IMG/VR virus record: IMGVR_UViG_3300028025_002446
Span: 1-32,284 of that record
Reading direction: 5' to 3' (one strand)
Origin: a virus
DNA length: 32,284 nucleotides
The notes under the pieces were generated by a model that had not been told where the DNA came from, did not search any database, and was given only the letters and a program-made list of their open reading frames with translations. Below are positions 68-32,284 of the stretch, in pieces. Within the stretch, counting starts at the first letter, position 1, and every line of letters starts with the position of its first letter. The position numbers were made by a program, and so were the translations under genes.

Positions 68-385
68 TTATGCCGTAGGGGGTTTGTTGCCTCTTGAGCT
101 GTTACAGGATTTATGAGCTGGTAATAGTGGTGATTGTGGGACACCAGGGTAGTAGTGGTCTGCTGTGATTTGTTTTGTGTCTGTGAATGGTTGTTTACAT
201 AGCCAACATATTGTGGCTGATTCTCTTACTTGTTTTGCTCTTTTGCGATAATCGCCTGAATAGTGTGTTCTGTTTGGTTTACGTCTTTCGTCTAACTTTG
301 CAATGTATTCGCTCTGGTGTTTAACGCAACGGTTTCCTTTCTCAACGAGTGTGCCACAGGTGAGGCAAGGTCTTTTGAATCCCAT
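68..385 (-). CDS. HNH endonuclease with N-terminal zinc finger
   Basis: A 105-aa HNH-family nuclease. Residues 7-23 hold a Cys-x2-Cys...Cys-x2-His set that looks like a small zinc-binding knuckle. The HNH part follows: C60-x2-C63, the D76-H77 pair of the first histidine, and H91-x2-C94-N95 at the end of the beta-beta-alpha-metal fold. In many phages such a free-standing HNH gene lies directly before terS/terL and helps terminase-dependent packaging; here it is the last gene before the window edge, with terL at the opposite edge. The start at 385 lies 94 nt inside the upstream peptidase gene. The HNH assignment is clear; the packaging role is inferred from position. Confidence 0.85.
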   Translation of the reverse strand: MGFKRPCLTCGTLVEKGNRCVKHQSEYIAKLDERRKPNRTHYSGDYRKRAKQVRESATICWLCKQPFTDTKQITADHYYPGVPQSPLLPAHKSCNSSRGNKPPTA

Positions 386-981
386 TGTTTAATTGTCCCA
401 TTGGTTTGGGAAACCCATCCGTAGATTGGTGGGTGGGAAAAGCTGTCGTGGGTGGTTGCTGTTTCGATTGCATCATATAAATATTTAGTGTGATTGGTGT
501 TCCAGTCTTTTGTTGTTCTGAATGCTGTTGCAAGTGAACCTAAAGCTAGTGAGCCACCTGAACCTATTGCCCAATATGGTGTGCATCTACTAATACCTAG
601 TGTGTTGCTGATGCTGAATGCTTTGCCGTGTGTTACAAGTAGTAGTTCTGATTCTGGTAGTTCGGCTACACCATCTTTAACATCTAGTGTTAATTGTTCT
701 TGTGCAACCTTTCTAATTAAAGGAATGATTCTTTTTGCTACCCATTGATACCAACTCATTATGTCCTCTTTCTTTTTTAGTTGTGGTGGAACTGCTGGAT
801 ACTTAACTAAATATTGCAACACGTCACAAACACGGTCAGCACCTGCTGCAGCGATAAGCCATTCACCTTGGCGAATAATCTTATTCATTGGTGGTGCTGT
901 GTGATAAGACTCGTCAGTTATCCCTGATTCTGACATCATCACGCATTGTTTGTTTGTTGATGCAATTCCTATTGTTGTCAT
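292..981 (-). CDS. HslV/20S proteasome-beta-like Ntn-hydrolase
   Basis: A 229-aa protein with the pattern of the HslV/proteasome beta family, threonine peptidases that use an N-terminal Thr as nucleophile. Removing the first Met exposes Thr1 (TTIGIA). In that numbering Glu is at 17, where the family has Asp, the catalytic Lys is at 33 (MNKI), and Gly is at 46 in AAAG, near the family's Gly47. A later WAIGSGGSLALGS block closely matches the AIGSGG block of HslV. No propeptide is present, as in HslV. The last 30 or so residues extend past the usual fold and overlap the HNH gene. The start overlaps the stop of the upstream 35-aa gene (ATGA). No HslU or other unfoldase is visible, so it may act alone, on peptides, or with host ATPases. 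The substrate is unknown. Confidence 0.78.
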   Translation of the reverse strand: MTTIGIASTNKQCVMMSESGITDESYHTAPPMNKIIRQGEWLIAAAGADRVCDVLQYLVKYPAVPPQLKKKEDIMSWYQWVAKRIIPLIRKVAQEQLTLDVKDGVAELPESELLLVTHGKAFSISNTLGISRCTPYWAIGSGGSLALGSLATAFRTTKDWNTNHTKYLYDAIETATTHDSFSHPPIYGWVSQTNGTIKQWDSKDLASPVAHSLRKETVALNTRANTLQS

Positions 982-1085
982 TTAACTTTTAGGCTCTCTC
1001 GGTCAATGGATATGTTTGCAGCCTGTAAACATTCGGCATAAGTGTTGTGGTCTTGTGTTTCGCAACCTGAACGACAATTACTCAT
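978..1085 (-). CDS. 35-aa actinophage Cys-motif microprotein
   Basis: A 35-aa ORF that starts with ATG at 1085 inside the end of the upstream basic-protein gene and ends in TGA overlapping the next ATG (ATGA), a tight coupled arrangement. The peptide carries CRSGC, then TQDHNTYAECLQAAN. I recall this pattern (C-x2-GC-x-T-x-DH...ECL) from many small proteins of actinobacteriophages. The three cysteines and the histidine could bind a metal. No function is known to me. The coupling on both sides and the recognisable motif argue that it is real despite its size. Confidence 0.75.
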   Translation of the reverse strand: MSNCRSGCETQDHNTYAECLQAANISIDRESLKVK

Positions 1086-1314
1086 CAGTTGCCTCAGCTT
1101 CTTTTAACGCTTCTATGGTGATTTCATTAGGAGTGTGTGTTTTAACATAAGCACGTTTCTGTTCACGAATCTTTAACTTTGCTGGGCTATAACCACCAAT
1201 GGTTCTACCAGTTTTGCGTTGCTTGCGAGGATTCTTCTTCCACGCTTTGCCACACTTACGATTGTCATTACGAGCACCACCAGACTTACCTCTACCTTTA
1301 CCCTTACCCATCAC
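1078..1314 (-). CDS. small basic protein, function unknown
   Basis: A 78-aa protein with a very basic, glycine- and lysine-rich first half (a GKGKGRGKSGG-type run, then many K/R) and a more acidic helical C-terminus. It resembles nucleic-acid-binding tails but no family is recognised. Two Met codons open the frame; either could be the start. Its start overlaps the stop of the upstream gene at 1311-1313 by four bases, and its end overlaps the 35-aa microprotein gene, so it belongs to the same coupled series. Confidence 0.6.
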   Translation of the reverse strand: MMGKGKGRGKSGGARNDNRKCGKAWKKNPRKQRKTGRTIGGYSPAKLKIREQKRAYVKTHTPNEITIEALKEAEATDE

Positions 1315-1628
1315 TCACCTTTTCCAATAACAGAACCTTTACCTGCAGCAACATCAGCAGCGTGCAACACACCAGCAATGAACAAAGTTGGTATCTGATG
1401 GTCACTTGAATTGACGTTACGAAAAGTCATAACCTCAACCTCAGCCATCAAAGAATCAATAACTGCTTGACGAGTGAAACCAACAATCATATGAGTTTGG
1501 TTAATACCTGGCTCAAGTTGTTCAGGTGTGCTCTCGTAATGTTCCAAAGCATAATTCATCAACAGAGCTTTAATCCTCTGCCCAACAGGGTCATCAAAGA
1601 TTTCTATTCCCACGAATGTTTTAACCAC
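1311..1628 (-). CDS. hypothetical protein, 105 aa
   Basis: Begins with GTG at 1628, 25 nt inside the upstream HNH gene, and ends overlapping the next gene by four bases. The protein is mixed alpha/beta without Cys motifs, signal peptide or membrane segment; it ends in a glycine-rich GKGSVIGKGE tail. I do not recognise the family. Its place in an unbroken coupled run between an HNH nuclease and a basic protein supports it as a real gene. Confidence 0.6.
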   Translation of the reverse strand: MVKTFVGIEIFDDPVGQRIKALLMNYALEHYESTPEQLEPGINQTHMIVGFTRQAVIDSLMAEVEVMTFRNVNSSDHQIPTLFIAGVLHAADVAAGKGSVIGKGE

Positions 1629-2314: not shown

Positions 2315-2718
2315 TATTTTTCTCCTTTTATTTTTGTTAGACGACTTCCCCTGGTTATAGGAAAGAAACCAACAGACTTAGTTCTCTTTGTTCTGTTTTC
2401 GAACTCTGTTGTTGTTGGTAAATCAGTTTGGTCTTTCCACTCTGGTTCAAAAAGACGCAAATCAAAAGCCCACACACCTTGAGGTGTTGAACAAATATAA
2501 GTAGGAATCATTCCACGTTCACCAGCCTCATATTTGAGTCGAGCATATTTTGATTGCTCAATCATCAAGTTCTCATAATGAGACTTACGGCACTTCAGCT
2601 CAATAAATAATTGTCTTGCATTAGAAAAGCAATCATATGAATCATAAATACCTGATGATTTAACTAAGTCAGGCATATAAAACTCTTTTAGCTTATTAAA
2701 TAATTCTTTTTCGTTCAT
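2314..2718 (-). CDS. putative PD-(D/E)XK nuclease-like protein
   Basis: A 134-aa protein. The first half has the spacing of a small PD-(D/E)XK nuclease: an Asp-rich region around YDSYD (residues 25-29), then LFIELKCRKSHY, where E-L-K would be the (D/E)-x-K core on a beta strand, followed by a helix with conserved-looking polar residues (MIEQSKYARLKY). The C-terminal half is basic. Its start overlaps the stop of whiB as ATGA and its stop overlaps the ssb start as TAATG. Family assignment rests on the motif alone. Confidence 0.5.
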   Translation of the reverse strand: MNEKELFNKLKEFYMPDLVKSSGIYDSYDCFSNARQLFIELKCRKSHYENLMIEQSKYARLKYEAGERGMIPTYICSTPQGVWAFDLRLFEPEWKDQTDLPTTTEFENRTKRTKSVGFFPITRGSRLTKIKGEK

Positions 2719-3053
2719 AATCTGTGCGCAATCACTCGAATAACTTTTCTTTTATGTTTAACATCATTTGGCATAGGAAACGCTTTCCTTAACCTTTCAC
2801 GTTCTGCAGCAGTAAAACTTCCCCAAATACCCCACTTGTTTGACCAACCATCTTCTAAACAAAAACCACGAACAGGGCAACCTAAACAAATCCTTATCGC
2901 TGATTTAATTGCAGGAACATCATCTGCTTCACAGAAAAACATTTCAGGGTCAGCATCAAGGCATTTAGCGTGTGTTTGCCAATCATCTGGTTTTGGGCAT
3001 TCTGCGCAGATTTGAGTGCCATCAATCACGGGATGACTGCAATCTTTTAGCAC
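2715..3053 (-). CDS. WhiB-like Fe-S transcription factor
   Basis: A 112-aa member of the WhiB family, which is confined to Actinobacteria and their phages. Cluster ligands are C31 (AKCLDADPEMFF), then C56-x2-C59-x5-C65 (CLGCPVRGFC). The turn motif is GIWGSF at 75-80, in place of the usual G-I/V-WGG. A basic tail (KHKRKVIRVIAHR) follows and would contact DNA. Extra cysteines at 5, 16 and 19 make a possible second metal site. The start is GTG at 3053, 32 nt inside the preceding nuclease gene. It probably acts with the host sigma factor to alter transcription; known phage WhiB proteins can block host WhiB function. This gene is the strongest host marker in the window. Confidence 0.93.
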   Translation of the reverse strand: MLKDCSHPVIDGTQICAECPKPDDWQTHAKCLDADPEMFFCEADDVPAIKSAIRICLGCPVRGFCLEDGWSNKWGIWGSFTAAERERLRKAFPMPNDVKHKRKVIRVIAHRL

Positions 3054-4198: not shown

Positions 4199-4419
4199 TA
4201 GAAATCCCTTTGGTTCGCAGGATGGTTTGCAAAGTAATGGTCAATGACAACTGTTCCAGCTAAAACTTGACCACTCCAAGAATTGTCGTGCTTGAAACCA
4301 AAACCACATTCCAAACAAACAAGCTCACTATCAGGATTGACTGACTGGTCAATAATTGATGCAAATAAATCAAAGTTCTCATAAATTGCATCAGGTAATG
4401 CTTCTTTTGTCTTACTCAT
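4198..4419 (-). CDS. 73-aa zinc-knuckle protein
   Basis: A small acidic protein with C-L-E-C at residues 35-38 followed by FKH, and HYFANH near the end, so a C2H2-type metal site is possible. A ribosome-binding site (GGAAAGAGGG) precedes the ATG at 4419. A hairpin at 4442-4479 separates it from the gene upstream. Part of its coding sequence (4307-4352) recurs in inverse orientation at the left edge of the window. No family is recognised. Confidence 0.65.
   Translation of the reverse strand: MSKTKEALPDAIYENFDLFASIIDQSVNPDSELVCLECGFGFKHDNSWSGQVLAGTVVIDHYFANHPANQRDF
4307..4352. repeat. internal copy of the 46-bp inverted repeat
   Basis: The partner of bases 1-46, exact over 46 bases, lying within the coding sequence of the zinc-knuckle gene. 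This copy sits in an intact reading frame, so it is the parental sequence and the copy at the window edge is the derived one. Confidence 0.9.
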
Positions 4420-12250: not shown

Positions 12251-12952
12251 GTGCCAAAAATTAAATTTAACCCCATTTTGGGGTATGAGAATTTAGCATT
12301 ACGCCCTAAACCAGCCAAAATTGAAACACCTGATTGGTATAAAAAAATGCCAATGCAAATGCTTCATATGAACACCCCAGTTGGTAAAGAATTTGGGCCA
12401 AATAGCCATACGGTTAAAAGATGCATTCCTTTATTTGACGGAATGACAAGTGGATATTTATTTTTTTCTTACGCAGACATAATTGTCAAAGTAGAAAATG
12501 GTTGTTCTCGGATTACTTGGTCACACGAAAGCAACGTTGTTGAAGTTCACGAAAAAAATCAATTACAAGGTATGCCTTTACCTATGGGTTATTACAAAGA
12601 TGAGGCTTTCAAATGGTTTAACCCAATTAAAATACAAACCCCTAAAGGATACAGCAGCTTGTTTGTTTCTCCACTAATTAGAAATGAACTTCCTTTTCAA
12701 TGCTTTCCAGCAATTGTTGATACTGATACTTACACTTCTGCAATTCACTTTCCGTTTTTAATTAGAAAAAATTGGGAAGGAAAAATTCCTAGAGGAACAC
12801 CTATTATGCAAGTTATTCCTTTTAAGCGTGAAGATTGGAAAATGGATTATTCAGATGAGCCAATAGATAATGATAAAGAAATTTCTTTATTAAAAACTAT
12901 GTTCAATAGTGCTTATAAAAAAATGTATTGGCAGAAAAAATATTACATTTAG
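12251..12952 (+). CDS. DUF6065-like protein, only plus-strand gene
   Basis: A 233-aa protein resembling an uncharacterised family that I know from cyanophages and other aquatic phages (DUF6065-like). Marks are TPDWYKKM near residue 30, TVKRCIPLFDGMTSGYLFF, TPKGYSSLFVSPL, IVDTDTYTSAIHFPF and KIPRGTPIMQVIPF, which suggest a beta-rich, cupin-like fold, although no metal set is clear. GTG start at 12251. The gene is opposite to all its neighbours, overlaps the end of the first glycine-rich gene by four bases and has its own promoter. This is the pattern of a moron. Function unknown. Confidence 0.75.
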   Translation: MPKIKFNPILGYENLALRPKPAKIETPDWYKKMPMQMLHMNTPVGKEFGPNSHTVKRCIPLFDGMTSGYLFFSYADIIVKVENGCSRITWSHESNVVEVHEKNQLQGMPLPMGYYKDEAFKWFNPIKIQTPKGYSSLFVSPLIRNELPFQCFPAIVDTDTYTSAIHFPFLIRKNWEGKIPRGTPIMQVIPFKREDWKMDYSDEPIDNDKEISLLKTMFNSAYKKMYWQKKYYI

Positions 12953-13764
12953 TAGTTGTATTTAATTATTACGATTCCGCTACCACCAGAACCACCAACA
13001 GAATCTATACCTGAACCTGTTCCACCTGAACCTGTGAATGGCGCACCACTACCTTGTCTATAGTCTCCACCACCTTGATTTCTTCCACCACTTCCACCAA
13101 TACCAGAACCGCCAGCAGTAGCAGTAGCGTTATCTCTACCTGCTAAACCACCACCACCTGCGTAAAATTTTGCAGTACCAGTTATTGAATAAGACAAACC
13201 TGCTCCACCTGCACCGTTATTGTTTCCAGCAGCACCAGCTCCACCGCCTGAACCACCTTGACCATTTGAAGTATTTTGTGCTGGAGAGTTTCCACCAGCA
13301 AATCCTTGACCTGCTGTACCTGCTCCACCGTTTGCACCAAAACCGTTATCTCCACCTGAGCCACCACCTGAGCCACCAGAAACACCATTAGCCCTTGATT
13401 GTCCTGCGCCACCGCCAATAGCAGTTTGTGAACCAAAAACAGAATTTGCGCCACTAGCATTTTGACCACCACCAGCACCAACAGTTACCGTGTAAGAAGT
13501 TCCACCTGTTACAGCAAAGTTTGCGTTATAAATTAAACCACCTGCGCCACCACCACCAGGTTGAACAGTTGCGCCTGCGCCACCGCCACCACCGCCACCA
13601 ACACATAAAAGTTCAACACTTGTAACACCTGGTGGGCAAACCCAAACTGTGCTTGCGCTAAAAACTTCTAATCTTGTATTAACTTGTCTAGCATTCATTT
13701 GAACGTTAGGTGAATCAAATGCTCTCAAACCTAAACCTTGATATGTTGCTCTACGAATACCCAT
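12949..13764 (-). CDS. glycine-rich adhesin A
   Basis: A 271-aa tail-tip protein. After an N-terminal beta domain (about 1-55, VWVCPPGVTSVELLCVGGGGGGG), a long glycine-rich body with repeated GG-x-GG blocks continues to the end, closing with SGIVIIKYNY. Glycine-rich sequences of this type form polyglycine-II sandwiches in phage adhesins such as T-even gp38 and bind receptors on the cell surface. Paralogues lie at 13764-14600 and 16299-17177. The start is coupled to the paralogue (TAATG). Confidence 0.75.
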   Translation of the reverse strand: MGIRRATYQGLGLRAFDSPNVQMNARQVNTRLEVFSASTVWVCPPGVTSVELLCVGGGGGGGAGATVQPGGGGAGGLIYNANFAVTGGTSYTVTVGAGGGQNASGANSVFGSQTAIGGGAGQSRANGVSGGSGGGSGGDNGFGANGGAGTAGQGFAGGNSPAQNTSNGQGGSGGGAGAAGNNNGAGGAGLSYSITGTAKFYAGGGGLAGRDNATATAGGSGIGGSGGRNQGGGDYRQGSGAPFTGSGGTGSGIDSVGGSGGSGIVIIKYNY

Positions 13765-14600
13765 TACACACCAACCTTGTATTTTAAGATGACAACACCG
13801 TTACCGCCAGAAGTTGCTGAAACTCCTGCGCCACCACCGCCACCTAAACCATTTGTTCCAGAGTTAGGTGTTCCAGTATTTGCTGCTGAGCTGTTACCGC
13901 CACCGCCAGCACCGCCTGAACCAGAATTATTATTTTGACCATTTTGTCCCCAACCACCAGCACCACCACCAGCGTAAGTTACAGAAGTTCCAGTTATTGA
14001 ATAAGCAACTCCAGCACCACCGTTAAAAGTATTTGAATTTGAACCAACAGCGCCAGCTCCGCCACCACCACCGCCACCATTGTTTTGTAAATTCTGCGCA
14101 CTTGAACCACCACCTGCAAAACCTTGACCTCTAGTAAAAGCGCCACCTGTGCCGTTATATCCGCCATTTTGTGAACCTGCACCACCACCTGAACCGTGAA
14201 CACCGTTTGATGGAGCAGCATTACCCCCAGCGCCACCACCAAAAGCTAACATTTCTCTAAATTGAGAACTATTACCCGAAGCACCACTAACGCCACCAGT
14301 TCCAACAGTTACAGATACAGAAGTATTTTGCCAAACATTCAAAGCAGATTCGTATAACAATCCACCTGCTCCACCGCCACCACGACCAACAGTTGAACCT
14401 GCGCCACCAACTCCGCCTGCTCCACCGCCAACAACAAGAATTTCAACAGTTCTTACGCCCCTAGGTCTTACCCAAGTCCCACTAGAAGTAAAAGTTTGAA
14501 CAACAAAATGATTAGCACCAATGCCTTGAATAATGGTGTCTTTATACCCATCAGGGCTATTCAAAGTTAGATTGCCCTCAGAAGCTCTCTTAATGGCCAT
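13764..14600 (-). CDS. glycine-rich adhesin B
   Basis: A 278-aa protein closely similar in layout to the adhesin at 12949: an N-terminal segment (LTLNSPDGYKDTIIQGIGAN), the WVRPRGVRTVEILVVGGGAGG strand, a long glycine body with Asn/Gln-rich turns, and the closing GGNGVVILKYKVGV. The DNA around the YSITGT block is similar in both genes, which points to tandem duplication. Start and stop overlap neighbours as TAATG, so all are translated together. Confidence 0.75.
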   Translation of the reverse strand: MAIKRASEGNLTLNSPDGYKDTIIQGIGANHFVVQTFTSSGTWVRPRGVRTVEILVVGGGAGGVGGAGSTVGRGGGGAGGLLYESALNVWQNTSVSVTVGTGGVSGASGNSSQFREMLAFGGGAGGNAAPSNGVHGSGGGAGSQNGGYNGTGGAFTRGQGFAGGGSSAQNLQNNGGGGGGGAGAVGSNSNTFNGGAGVAYSITGTSVTYAGGGAGGWGQNGQNNNSGSGGAGGGGNSSAANTGTPNSGTNGLGGGGGAGVSATSGGNGVVILKYKVGV

Positions 14601-15948: not shown

Positions 15949-16299
15949 TTATAGGGGTATCTCTACCCAATTTTTAAGTGTTTCATTCCACAAATAAAAT
16001 TTTTCATCTGTAGGTTTTTCTATTGGGGCTTCCCATTGACAAGTATCTAAATTTAATACCCAAGACTCAAAAAGTTTTGGTGAAATAAAAGCATCTAAAT
16101 TTTCATCATAAAAGAAACCAATGCCAGCATAATTCTTTCTGATAGAACCATTATAAGAAGTCCTCACACATTTTTGACCTTTTAAGTCGCCATAGAATTG
16201 TTCCCAATCAGAAATGCCAGCAATTACTTCATCCTCATTACGACCTGTTATAACTTCTGTAACAATATTGTTTTCATCTAAAAAAGCGTAATGCGCCAT
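15949..16299 (-). CDS. conserved aquatic-phage fibre-associated protein
   Basis: A 116-aa protein starting MAHYAFLDENNIV. NGSIRKNYAGIGFFYDENLDAFI and SWVLNLDTCQWEAPIEKPT are a hallmark family in cyanophages and pelagiphages next to tail genes. I use the ATG at 16299 (TAATG overlap with the adhesin upstream) since the family starts there, not the upstream Met. A shorter paralogue is at 11868-12215. Function unknown; its presence in an actinophage suggests gene exchange among aquatic phages. Confidence 0.7.
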   Translation of the reverse strand: MAHYAFLDENNIVTEVITGRNEDEVIAGISDWEQFYGDLKGQKCVRTSYNGSIRKNYAGIGFFYDENLDAFISPKLFESWVLNLDTCQWEAPIEKPTDEKFYLWNETLKNWVEIPL

Positions 16300-17177
16300 T
16301 ACCAACTCACAGTTCCAGTTCCAGCAGTAAATTTATATACAATATATCCTGCCCTTGTTGAAGTGTCTTTTGTATAAGTTAATCCAGCACCAATACTAAC
16401 TAAATCAGCAAATCTATCTTCATAAGCAATAATCACAATTCCTGAACCACCACTAAAACCACCACCTTCTGCGCCTCCTCCACCACCACCAGTATTTGCC
16501 GTTCCATTACTTCCAACTAAATCACCTTCACCTTGACCCCCACCACCATTACCACCATAACCAGCACCAGCAGAAGTTCTATCAGTTCCACCTCTTGCGC
16601 CTCCTCCACCACCAGAGTAATAAGTATTTACACCTGTTATTCCAAGTTGTAAACCAATTCCACCACTAGGTCTTGTTGTTGTACCAGCACCCCTAGTACC
16701 TTGTGCCATAGCACCACCACCACCACCAGTATTTCTAGGGTCATCAGAACCTTGATTTCCTGAACCTGCTCCAGCATTACCTTGTCCAGCCGTAGGATTA
16801 CCACCAGTAAAAATTAAATTTGAATAGTTCATTGCAGCGCCACCACCAGAACCACCAGCACCACCATTGTCATTATTGGTATGTGAGCCACCACGACCAC
16901 CACCTGTAGCAGTTGCACTAGAAAAAACAGAATTGCTTCCTTGAGTAGCAATTGCGCCACCACCACCAACGGTTATTGTGTAATTAGTACTAACAGAAAT
17001 GCTTGTTGTATTTGTTAAATATCCACCAGCACCTCCACCTCCACCTCTGCCTTGCCCTCCTCCACCACCACCAGCAATTACAAGATATTCAACAGAAGTA
17101 GGTGCTAACTTTTTAGAAGAACCTTGAAAACCAAAATTTCTTGAAGATACTGCACCAAAAGTTGCTGTTAATGGCAT
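16299..17177 (-). CDS. glycine-rich adhesin C
   Basis: A 292-aa member of the same glycine-rich group: N-terminal SSKKLAPTSVEYLVIAGGGG, a glycine body with GGxGG blocks to about residue 235, then an extra C-terminal domain (SGIVIIAYEDRFADLVSIG, TYTKDTSTRAGYIVYKFTA) that the other two lack and that could be the host-facing tip. Start and stop overlap neighbours as TAATG. Confidence 0.75.
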   Translation of the reverse strand: MPLTATFGAVSSRNFGFQGSSKKLAPTSVEYLVIAGGGGGGQGRGGGGGAGGYLTNTTSISVSTNYTITVGGGGAIATQGSNSVFSSATATGGGRGGSHTNNDNGGAGGSGGGAAMNYSNLIFTGGNPTAGQGNAGAGSGNQGSDDPRNTGGGGGAMAQGTRGAGTTTRPSGGIGLQLGITGVNTYYSGGGGGARGGTDRTSAGAGYGGNGGGGQGEGDLVGSNGTANTGGGGGGAEGGGFSGGSGIVIIAYEDRFADLVSIGAGLTYTKDTSTRAGYIVYKFTAGTGTVSW

Positions 17178-27872: not shown

Positions 27873-28055
27873 TTAACGTATCTCTTTTACTTCTTGAATT
27901 CTTGTTTCTTTAACAGGTTCAAACTTTTTTGTTTCAACAGGTTTATCAATATTGATTACAGCTTCAGCCATAGCATCTGCTAAATCAGCAATGATTCCTG
28001 CTTCTGGATAACCTGCTGTTTTAAGAATTGCGTCTTTAACTTTTGCCTTATCCAT
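27873..28055 (-). CDS. small protein between protease and capsid
   Basis: A 60-aa protein starting with ATG 28055 (AAGG upstream) and not at the longer frame start at 28082. Helical first half (KVKDAILKTAGYPEAGIIADLADAMAEAV), charged second half (KKFEPVKETRIQEVKEI). Position suggests a scaffold fragment or head accessory protein. No family recognised. Confidence 0.6.
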   Translation of the reverse strand: MDKAKVKDAILKTAGYPEAGIIADLADAMAEAVINIDKPVETKKFEPVKETRIQEVKEIR

Positions 28056-29670
28056 TGTGAGTCGCCTTGAAAAGTAAATCAAGATGCTTACGTTTGATTT
28101 CTAGTGAAGCTAGTTCGTCTTTCACGATTTCGTCAATCATTGAGATTGGCTCAATAGGTTGCGCATCAGCCATTGGTGAGTCCTTTCGTAATTTTGAAAC
28201 AATTTCTATTATTAAATCTGCTTGGTCACCTGATAATGGTTCGCCATCCTCAAGTTTTCCAATAACAAAATCCAACATATCGGCATCCATACCAAGGACT
28301 TGTGCCAAGGTATCTAATGAACGAACTGAAGCAGTTGTTGCTTCGTATGCTGGAAATCCTGTAACAATAGAAACTTCGTGTAAACGAATTTCTTTTAATT
28401 CTCTTGTTGTTCCATCAGCAGACCAAGAGTCTCCGCCAGATGGTACTGAGAAACCAAAAGACATTGCGTGAACATCTCCACGTTTCATAAGCACAGCCAA
28501 ATCTCGACCTGCTGTTGTATCAGGCAAAGTTGCTTCAGCAAGCAAACCTTTTGAATCTTCTGTAAGTCTTAAAGTTTTTGAGCGAGTAGATGCAAGCACT
28601 TCATCCATATTATGATTCTTGAAAAGTTTTACTTCGTTGCGTGATTTAAGTGAACGTTTGAAAGCGTTTGGCATAATTCGTTCGATAAAAGGAAGTGGCT
28701 CAGAGTCGCTGTTAAATACTGCGGCATAACCAGTAAATCTCATACCATCTGCTTCAGCGTTTTCAACTCTTAATTCAAAATCAACATCTGTTTTAATACG
28801 TCTTTCAACTTTATTCACGTTGTTTTCCTTATCTGTCTTATTTGATTTTACATTGATACTTAACCACCTAGATTTATTTTCTTCGGCATCTAATTGATTA
28901 ACAACTTTTTGGGCATAATCTAAAGTTCTTTGCGCTGCAAGTTTGGATGGGCCACTTCCCCAAAGTAAATGAGCTACAAGCCCAGCACCAGGATATTCTG
29001 GGTCATCAGAATTACTATTCTTTGGCGCATCTAAATCAACAAGATGACGAGCAATCCAAGGAGCAATCCTGCGCCACTTATCCTCAGACACACGACCATC
29101 AGCCATATCTCTTGCTTCTTGTTTAGTTTTATCAGTTAAACCGTCTCCACCAAAACCTTGACGATTGTATTCAAGACCTTTACGAGCAGCTTCACGCATA
29201 TAAGCTGGTGGAGCTATATTTACTTGACGTTCTTGGTCATCATCTGAAGTGTTCTCAGGTAAATCATCAATCTTAGTTAATGTAGAAAATTTGTGACCAA
29301 CTAAAGTTTCTGTCTCACTCCAACCATTACCTTGTGGTCTATAAATTCTGATTAAAGCAGCAGGGTCATCAGGTGTAGCTTTAATAGAAAAATCTGATTC
29401 AGGAACACCAAGAGTTCCCTCTTTCATAACATATTCGATACGACCACGAGCGCGACCACCACTAGAATTCCAAGATACAAAATCGCCCTCTTTTAATTCA
29501 TCTGGTTTAGCACGTTCTCCACCTGGTTCAATTTCTTCAGCAATAGAAACAGCAACCATCTGGTCAATTGCATCTTGTTTAGTTGTGTGGCAACCAATAA
29601 CTTCGCCATCTTCTTTTATTGTTGCCCAGCCTGAACAGTCAGGTGATGAATCAGTTATGAAATAAGGCAT
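28048..29670 (-). CDS. multidomain HK97-type prohead protease
   Basis: A 540-aa protein. The start is ATG 29670 (TAATG with the upstream gene). N-terminal small domain (PYFITDSSPDCSGWATIK), then a Tudor-like DUF2945-type piece (EGDFVSWNSSGGRARGRIEYVM), then a helical part with MADGRVSEDKWRRIAPWIARHL and AGLVAHLLWGSG. The protease follows from about 300: ERRIKTDVDFELRV, FTGYAAVFNSDSE, FKNHNMDEVLAST with the catalytic His, DVHAMSFGFS with the catalytic Ser and LHEVSIVTGFPAY. Most HK97-type proteases are about 200 aa, so this is a long fused form. It cleaves scaffold and delta domain in prohead maturation. Confidence 0.85.
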   Translation of the reverse strand: MPYFITDSSPDCSGWATIKEDGEVIGCHTTKQDAIDQMVAVSIAEEIEPGGERAKPDELKEGDFVSWNSSGGRARGRIEYVMKEGTLGVPESDFSIKATPDDPAALIRIYRPQGNGWSETETLVGHKFSTLTKIDDLPENTSDDDQERQVNIAPPAYMREAARKGLEYNRQGFGGDGLTDKTKQEARDMADGRVSEDKWRRIAPWIARHLVDLDAPKNSNSDDPEYPGAGLVAHLLWGSGPSKLAAQRTLDYAQKVVNQLDAEENKSRWLSINVKSNKTDKENNVNKVERRIKTDVDFELRVENAEADGMRFTGYAAVFNSDSEPLPFIERIMPNAFKRSLKSRNEVKLFKNHNMDEVLASTRSKTLRLTEDSKGLLAEATLPDTTAGRDLAVLMKRGDVHAMSFGFSVPSGGDSWSADGTTRELKEIRLHEVSIVTGFPAYEATTASVRSLDTLAQVLGMDADMLDFVIGKLEDGEPLSGDQADLIIEIVSKLRKDSPMADAQPIEPISMIDEIVKDELASLEIKRKHLDLLFKATHNG

Positions 29671-29936
29671 TAGAGAACCTGCGCAATCCAACTAACAGAA
29701 TGGTTATTTTTTGTTGATATGCACCAAATTGTATTTCCTTGATGCAAAGTTAGTTCAATAGAATCTAATTTAGGAATAATCATTCCTGTAGTAGAACTTA
29801 CAGATTCGTTTCCAATGTAAAGATTATCTGTGTTGTCATTGTTATGAATATGTAAAATTACAGGATTATTTGACTGACCATCAATTCTTGTTGCTGCTGT
29901 ACCGACAGCCAATTGACCTGAAAGTAATTGCCCCAT
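29670..29936 (-). CDS. small beta protein near the portal
   Basis: An 88-aa all-beta protein (LLSGQLAVGTAATRIDGQSNNPVILHIHN, NLYIGNESVSSTTGMIIPKLDSIELTL). The pattern resembles small phage structural or decoration proteins. Genes before and after (portal and protease) place it in the head. It may be a capsid or tail decoration protein (uncertain). Confidence 0.65.
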   Translation of the reverse strand: MGQLLSGQLAVGTAATRIDGQSNNPVILHIHNNDNTDNLYIGNESVSSTTGMIIPKLDSIELTLHQGNTIWCISTKNNHSVSWIAQVL

Positions 29937-31437: not shown

Positions 31438-32284
31438 CTAAAAGAAAAATTCTGGAACTAGAGGTTCAGAATCATTGCGTGAAACTGTTGCCCTATCAAA
31501 AGCAATGATACTAGCAACTGCGGCATCTATCTTTCTAGGTGAGCCTCTGTGTTCTTTAACAATCCTTGGCCCAAGTCTGTCTATCTTTACAACAGCGTTT
31601 GAGATATGTCTTGTTAAAAGAGGTGAACCATCTTGCGTAAGTTTTTCCCCAACAACTGCATCATAAAACTTTGCGCAAGCTGGAATCATACGAGCAGCAG
31701 AAGTTGAGGGCCATTCAACAACAGGTAAACCAGCATCTTGTAAAACTTGCATACTTCTCTGCCAACGGAAAGGGTCACAAGCAATCTCTTTAACGTTATA
31801 TCTTTGACACGCTTCAATGATTGCGTTTTCAACTTCTAAAGAATCAACTCGCCATTCATCAGAATCGTTTGGTTGTTTTTCCCAAGCCTCTACAAGAAAG
31901 ACGTGAGGTTCATCCTCAATAGTTACACCCATAATTACAGAAGCATCACCAGAAAACGAACCATCAAAACCTAAAATAACTGGAACATCTTTATCAATAT
32001 CTTTCTTGATAATTCTTGATTCCCAAGCGCCATTAGGCAACCACGCTGTTTGAGATGAAACCCAAGCGTTAGTTCTCTTAGTACGAAACTCAGCTTCAGG
32101 TGTTCTCTTAACAGCAGATTCAAAATCTTCAATAGAGTTCAAATCACCAAATGCAGGATTGGCAAGTTTCCAAGTCTCAGGGTCACGGTGGTCTGATTCA
32201 AGAGATGCTTCCCACCAAGCCATAAAAAAAGATGGGTCATCATATTCACCACGAATAACCTTTTGACCATATTGATACAAAGAG
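31438..32284 (-). CDS. terL: terminase large subunit, C-terminal part (cut by edge)
   Basis: The frame stays open through base 32284, so the N-terminal ATPase domain is outside. About 281 residues remain. The nuclease domain is complete: LGFDGSFSGDASVI (first Asp), EIACDPFRW (second Asp), and KIDAAVASIIAFDRA (third acid). The stretch LANPAFGDL and FRTKRTNAWVSS before it are the conserved linker. Terminase packages DNA through the portal. Missing parts would be about 250 aa plus the small subunit. Confidence 0.93.
   Translation of the reverse strand, partial: SLYQYGQKVIRGEYDDPSFFMAWWEASLESDHRDPETWKLANPAFGDLNSIEDFESAVKRTPEAEFRTKRTNAWVSSQTAWLPNGAWESRIIKKDIDKDVPVILGFDGSFSGDASVIMGVTIEDEPHVFLVEAWEKQPNDSDEWRVDSLEVENAIIEACQRYNVKEIACDPFRWQRSMQVLQDAGLPVVEWPSTSAARMIPACAKFYDAVVGEKLTQDGSPLLTRHISNAVVKIDRLGPRIVKEHRGSPRKIDAAVASIIAFDRATVSRNDSEPLVPEFFF

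Follow-up and report, generated by a model that had tools for sequence, protein, structure and literature searches.

The window analysed here, a stretch of viral DNA of 32,284 nucleotides (IMG/VR record IMGVR_UViG_3300028025_002446), carries on its minus strand an open reading frame (981..292) encoding 229 amino acids and beginning MTTIGIAS. In mature numbering, with Met removed, the protein has Thr1, Thr2, Glu17, Lys33, a YWAIGSGG block and the motif HDSFS, whose Asp178 is the equivalent of Asp166 in the proteasome Asp166-x-x-Ser169 arrangement. The initial annotation of this frame had correctly listed the MTT start, Glu17, Lys33 and WAIGSGG; the HDSFS motif was absent from it. It had also proposed a phage-encoded proteasome/HslV-like threonine peptidase, and this assignment stands, as the PHROGs family phrog_1040 ('peptidase HslV family') matches the protein (E=1.4e-11) and the predicted fold finds a proteasome homologue with E=3.8e-10. 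The same PHROGs family matched each of the 12 sequences in a diverse alignment of relatives (best E 9.7e-19), while Pfam gave zero matches for the window protein. The profile match, the fold match and dN/dS rule out a chance frame, and 981..292 is a real gene for an N-terminal-nucleophile peptidase of the proteasome/HslV superfamily, a genuine and conserved peptidase that is probably active. The features of the locus are collected in Table 1.

Table 1 Features of the peptidase locus and of other relevant genes in the window.
Feature	Position	Strand	Basis or remark
HNH endonuclease, directly downstream of the peptidase	68..385	minus	phrog_338, E=1.1e-7
Variable C-terminal ~22 codons of the peptidase frame	292..360	minus	within the HNH overlap
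Conserved proteasome/HslV-like threonine peptidase domain, 207 aa	361..981	minus	profile, alignment, fold model, dN/dS
Acidic pore-loop-like insert, about codons 96-111, LTLDVKDGVAELPES	649..696	minus	Glu17 subclade only
Predicted catalytic Glu17 (mature numbering), codon 18	928..930	minus	counted from the ATG at 981
Predicted nucleophile Thr, codon 2	976-978	minus	
Small basic protein between helical gene and peptidase	1078..1314	minus	kept by most members of the Glu17 subclade
Upstream conserved neighbour, 105 aa, all-helical, function unassigned	1311..1628	minus	synteny, fold; not an ATPase
WhiB-like regulator, actinobacterial-host marker	2715..3053	minus	Pfam Whib, E=2.5e-14
Separate head maturation protease	28048..29691	minus	phrog_80, E=4.1e-71

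The order of genes around the peptidase is the same at nearly every locus, namely the helical protein of unassigned function, where present the small basic protein, the peptidase and the HNH endonuclease, followed by TerS, TerL and portal where the contig continues past HNH. The helical neighbour has 98-105 aa across loci and lies almost always beside the peptidase. Among contigs of at least 32 kb found via TerL, the peptidase is present in five of six and missing from one (34,153 bp), a prevalence estimate limited by the fact that most contigs end just upstream of TerS. Its absence from one of these six near-complete genomes shows that the group does not strictly require the gene. The window itself is cut inside TerL (1-385 and 31438-32284), with TerS and the TerL N-terminus missing; in the relatives L013 and L002 these lie between HNH and TerL. 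Many independent TerL contigs have their start upstream of the TerL match at a distance of about 1.64-1.67 or 2.3-2.4 kb. This pattern suggests fixed genome termini lying between HNH and TerS, in which case the right end of the genome would carry the peptidase and HNH genes. Positions 1-46 of the window repeat 4307-4352 exactly in inverted orientation. This probably arose in the assembly of the contig end, because the alignment with L002 (which encodes a 98%-identical protein) stops at about window position 43.

In order to assess conservation, we assembled about 55 distinct IMG/VR sequences by pattern and profile scans, down to ~37% identity. Scans of genome contigs gave zero cellular relatives, and a plasmid scan likewise gave zero. 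Counting only alignment rows not truncated at the given site, Thr1 (53/53), Asp or Glu at position 17 (53/53), Lys33 (54/54), Gly47 (55/55), Ser129 (56/56), Asp166 (55/55) and Ser or Thr at position 169 (54/54) are invariant. Comparison of the window peptidase with close relatives gave dN/dS values of 0.07-0.17, indicating that the gene is under purifying selection.

The initial annotation had called Glu17 unusual, a view that cannot be kept, since the catalytic triad of core particles in all domains of life comprises Thr1, Lys33 and Asp/Glu17 (PMC4792962) and, in the family alignment, Glu is fixed in 21 sequences and 32 have Asp. The 21 Glu17 sequences, which include the window protein, form a subclade of frames of 205-251 aa, all with an acidic KDGVAELP insert at the pore-loop site of proteasome homologues (net charge of the loop segment -4 to -6). 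The Asp17 subclade has about 183-188 aa and lacks this insert. From these alignments, Glu17 is best read as a subclade trait inherited along with the acidic insert, with no predicted loss of function.

Phages can use inactive homologues of cellular proteins, and the gene could in principle encode a catalytically dead structural or inhibitory mimic, a decoy subunit that poisons the host proteasome. We consider this very improbable, as a decoy would not need its catalytic residues, which are invariant over the about 55 sequences in a gene with low dN/dS.

An AlphaFold2 model of the window peptidase, built from a 12-sequence alignment (pLDDT 86.1, pTM 0.85), predicts a proteasome-type fold, with a beta-sandwich core flanked by helices, and with helices 51-58, 66-69 and 74-97 preceding the pore loop. 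With this fold, and with Thr1 and Lys33 invariant, neither of the two results named in the initial annotation as counting against it was obtained. The top Foldseek match in the PDB was 5ovs (E 3.8e-10), a Thiobacillus structure of the betaproteobacterial proteasome homologue (BPH), further best matches being the Thermoplasma acidophilum proteasome (1pma) and HslV (6kui, 1g3i, 1m4y), and the best 50 matches were proteasome-like throughout. Identity to these solved relatives is only 12-20%, and TM-scores are about 0.6-0.7, the query TM-scores being moderate (0.58-0.66). In a viral structure library, the best match was an unnamed phage protein (42% identity) and the second a phage protein named HslVU peptidase subunit; a protein of Gordonia phage Daredevil also matched.

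The protein had been described as a close match to HslV, which the searches do not support. Like HslV (ClpQ), it has the proteasome-type fold, a Met-Thr-Thr start, Lys33 and GSGG, but it has a longer pore loop and Glu17, its phage encodes no HslU, and the NCBIfam HslV model matched neither the window protein (E<=10) nor 12 relatives (E<=0.1), Pfam being equally silent. The NCBIfam model of archaeal proteasome beta, TIGR03634, matched weakly (E about 1e-3 for the window protein; 11 of 12 relatives, best 1.5e-7). The family shares with archaeal 20S beta the D-S-x-S signature at 166-169, and Glu17 is present in Thermoplasma proteasome beta too; the window peptidase differs in having neither propeptide nor alpha partner, and the match lies far below the family cut-off (19 against 224 bits). 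Bacterial 20S beta (PrcB) was ruled out, since Met directly precedes Thr1 without a propeptide and the window contains a single proteasome-like match. BPH (5ovs, 5ovt, 5ovu) is the best fold match and appears to share with the window peptidase a long acidic pore loop, a Met-Thr start and the absence of an unfoldase. However, identity is ~18%, Td-BPH has Asp17 and a lysine at position 37, the BPH gene is cellular, and profile matching gave E of only 2.8e-4 to 5e-3. The peptidase is about equally near to BPH, archaeal 20S beta and HslV.

Phage-borne relatives are more numerous than anticipated by the initial annotation, which held that phages seldom carry such peptidases: the homologue of Xanthomonas phage XacN1, which a search with the window protein had retrieved, alone has matches in 176 phage records, the majority from phages of Salmonella and Escherichia. 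Furthermore, the phage-borne proteasome homologues PPH and AAH, which have no AAA+ partners, were described by Fuchs, Alva and Lupas in 2021 (PMC8665760). Like the window peptidase, PPH and AAH are Group I proteasome homologues found in phages without an AAA+ partner; the 2021 survey found AAH in no phage specific to Actinobacteria and gave no hint of function, and we found no literature on the function of phage PPH/AAH beyond it. PPH proteins have ~140 aa and lack helix H2, whereas the window peptidase has a 207-residue domain with helices before the pore loop and lies apart from the proteobacterial and Firmicute phage homologues in the tree, which speaks against PPH membership. The phrog_1040 phages (such as XacN1, PBECO4, T5-like Sw2 and Vibrio henriette) encode peptidases with Thr1, Asp17 and Lys33, and this family also matches the window protein. 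In our alignment, however, the sampled homologues from outside actinophages have Ala or Cys at mature position 2 instead of Thr and Ser or Thr in place of Gly47, and their Asp166 column lacks Asp, while the actinophage side keeps Gly47, Asp166 and Ser/Thr169. A tree with several long branches, and hence an unsure inner order, groups the window family with homologues from Planktophila, Microbacterium and Actinomycetia phages and separates this actinophage side, with support 100/100, from the homologues sampled in phages of Proteobacteria and Firmicutes. Such phage peptidases are thus known as a kind, and the actinophage branch without its own unfoldase looks undescribed.

The nearest cultured phage to the window is Pontimonas phage phiPsal1 (TerL 62.5%, MCP 46.7%), in which the peptidase profile had no match. 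Together with the WhiB-like regulator, this nearness in TerL and MCP points to an actinobacterial host. Cultured carriers of the peptidase were reached with an Asp17-subclade query, which matched OX376640.1 and OX376641.1, the 'Ca. Planktophila' phages LanE43-AprE7 (E7) and LanE43-AprF5 (F5) of Kavagutti et al. 2023 (PMC10202952); the main text of that paper makes no mention of a proteasome-like protein or protease. In both phages the peptidase is unannotated and has a full active site. These two proteins, gp135 of Microbacterium phage Pumpernickel and the homologue of Actinomycetia phage DSL-LC01 have T1-T2, D17, K33, G47, D166 and T169 and fall on the same side of the tree as the window protein, from which they differ in Asp17, in their gene neighbours and in sequence (roughly 30% identity or less).

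The initial annotation had also noted that no ATPase partner was visible, and our search agrees, as neither the window nor near-complete relatives yielded an AAA+ unfoldase. AAA_2 (ClpX/HslU type) had no match in 20 phage records, and PF00004 had none in the window or in 17 contigs of viruses, whereas 14 of 14 control genomes gave matches. Among phages, PF00004 matched only in the two from Planktophila, where it hit a RecA-like protein at a distance from the peptidase; this gene (W01 33290-33706) is not an evident unfoldase, having by sequence a RecA/RepA-like P-loop and lying about 25 kb away. No Walker A motif occurs in window frames of at least 60 aa (the TerL N-terminus lies outside the window). 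The helical neighbour was ruled out as an unfoldase, being of 105 aa, all-helical and with no PDB match better than E=3. A defence-system protein was also considered, and PADLOC gave no match.

The end of the peptidase gene overlaps the HNH gene, the peptidase stop lying 94 bp inside the HNH frame. The last ~22 codons are missing or divergent in relatives, and substitutions in the overlap spare the HNH frame; 7 of the 11 in the most informative pair fall at HNH third and peptidase second positions, the other two pairs having few changes. Both the sparing of the HNH frame and the loss or variation of the tail among relatives place the probable end of the functional domain near residue 207 (window ~361), and the tail itself is probably unconstrained and not functional.

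The peptidase could nevertheless make use of a host unfoldase, as the initial annotation had proposed. One possibility is that it docks on a host AAA+ unfoldase, with Mpa/ARC (Pup-proteasome system) and ClpX/ClpC as candidates, and turns it against defence or regulatory proteins, a scenario consistent with the lack of a phage unfoldase and with the actinobacterial host inferred from WhiB, TerL and MCP. However, no docking motif was identified, the C-terminal tail is variable and unconstrained, and neither BPH (PMC5777263) nor the new homologues (PMC8665760) have a co-occurring AAA+ protein, and we regard such docking as rather unlikely.

We consider it probable that the gene encodes an active, self-assembling BPH/HslV-like threonine peptidase of an actinophage branch, working without a dedicated phage unfoldase. 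Host methionine aminopeptidase would remove Met1 and expose Thr1, there being no propeptide, similarly to what was seen for BPH, which also loses its Met (PMC5777263). Lys33, placed by Glu17 (Asp17 in the sister phages), would deprotonate Thr1, with Gly47 forming the putative oxyanion hole and Ser129, Asp166 and Ser/Thr169 predicted to hold the Thr1 amine. The subunits would most likely assemble into a double ring whose internal chamber the acidic loop constricts. Because the phage encodes no ATPase, action without a dedicated phage unfoldase is most likely, and it may be BPH-like, the substrates being host or phage proteins that are unfolded, short or delivered in a special way. BPH, which has no unfoldase and a long acidic pore loop, is inert on standard peptides and casein, yet epoxomicin labels its Thr1 (PMC5777263). 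Proteolysis by the window peptidase therefore cannot be assumed, given that its nearest solved relative is inert on standard substrates, and a narrow substrate range is plausible. Possible roles include turnover of the host proteome, removal of host regulators or defence proteins, and processing of phage proteins.

The inertness of BPH on generic substrates is also compatible with a specialised N-terminal-nucleophile hydrolase, that is, a specific processing peptidase, an amidase or a connectase-like ligase, perhaps acting on the product of the neighbouring HNH or terminase genes. The highly conserved position beside HNH-TerS-TerL would fit such a role, and connectase exemplifies the same fold turned ligase (PMC8665760). 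Nevertheless, the peptidase retains the complete set of proteasome catalytic residues, D166 and S/T169 among them, and connectase differs in lacking the first pair of helices and in its S3/S4 insertion (PMC8665760), whereas the peptidase model has the helices and carries its insert at the pore loop. Moreover, a distinct head maturation protease is encoded elsewhere in the window, which rules out a prohead-protease role. We consider a specialised hydrolase unlikely.

Extending the preferred reading of an active threonine peptidase, we tentatively propose an actinophage-specific family, near-core beside the packaging genes of a widespread aquatic group and possibly dedicated to ATP-independent degradation or specific processing, in which the variant with Glu17 and acidic loop may represent a new architecture. 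With the window gene, the proteasome homologues borne by phages reach into a widespread group of actinophages, most of them uncultured, and the link to the cultured phages E7 and F5 makes the role of unfoldase-free phage peptidases testable. Whereas the 2021 survey offered no functional clue, here the gene neighbourhood is conserved and the active site is under strong selection.

Two further observations concern the structural genes of the window. Three glycine-rich tail-like proteins (12949-13764, 13764-14600 and 16299-17177) have similar composition and are apparently paralogous, and a lone plus-strand frame of 233 aa (12251-12952) lies among the minus-strand structural genes.
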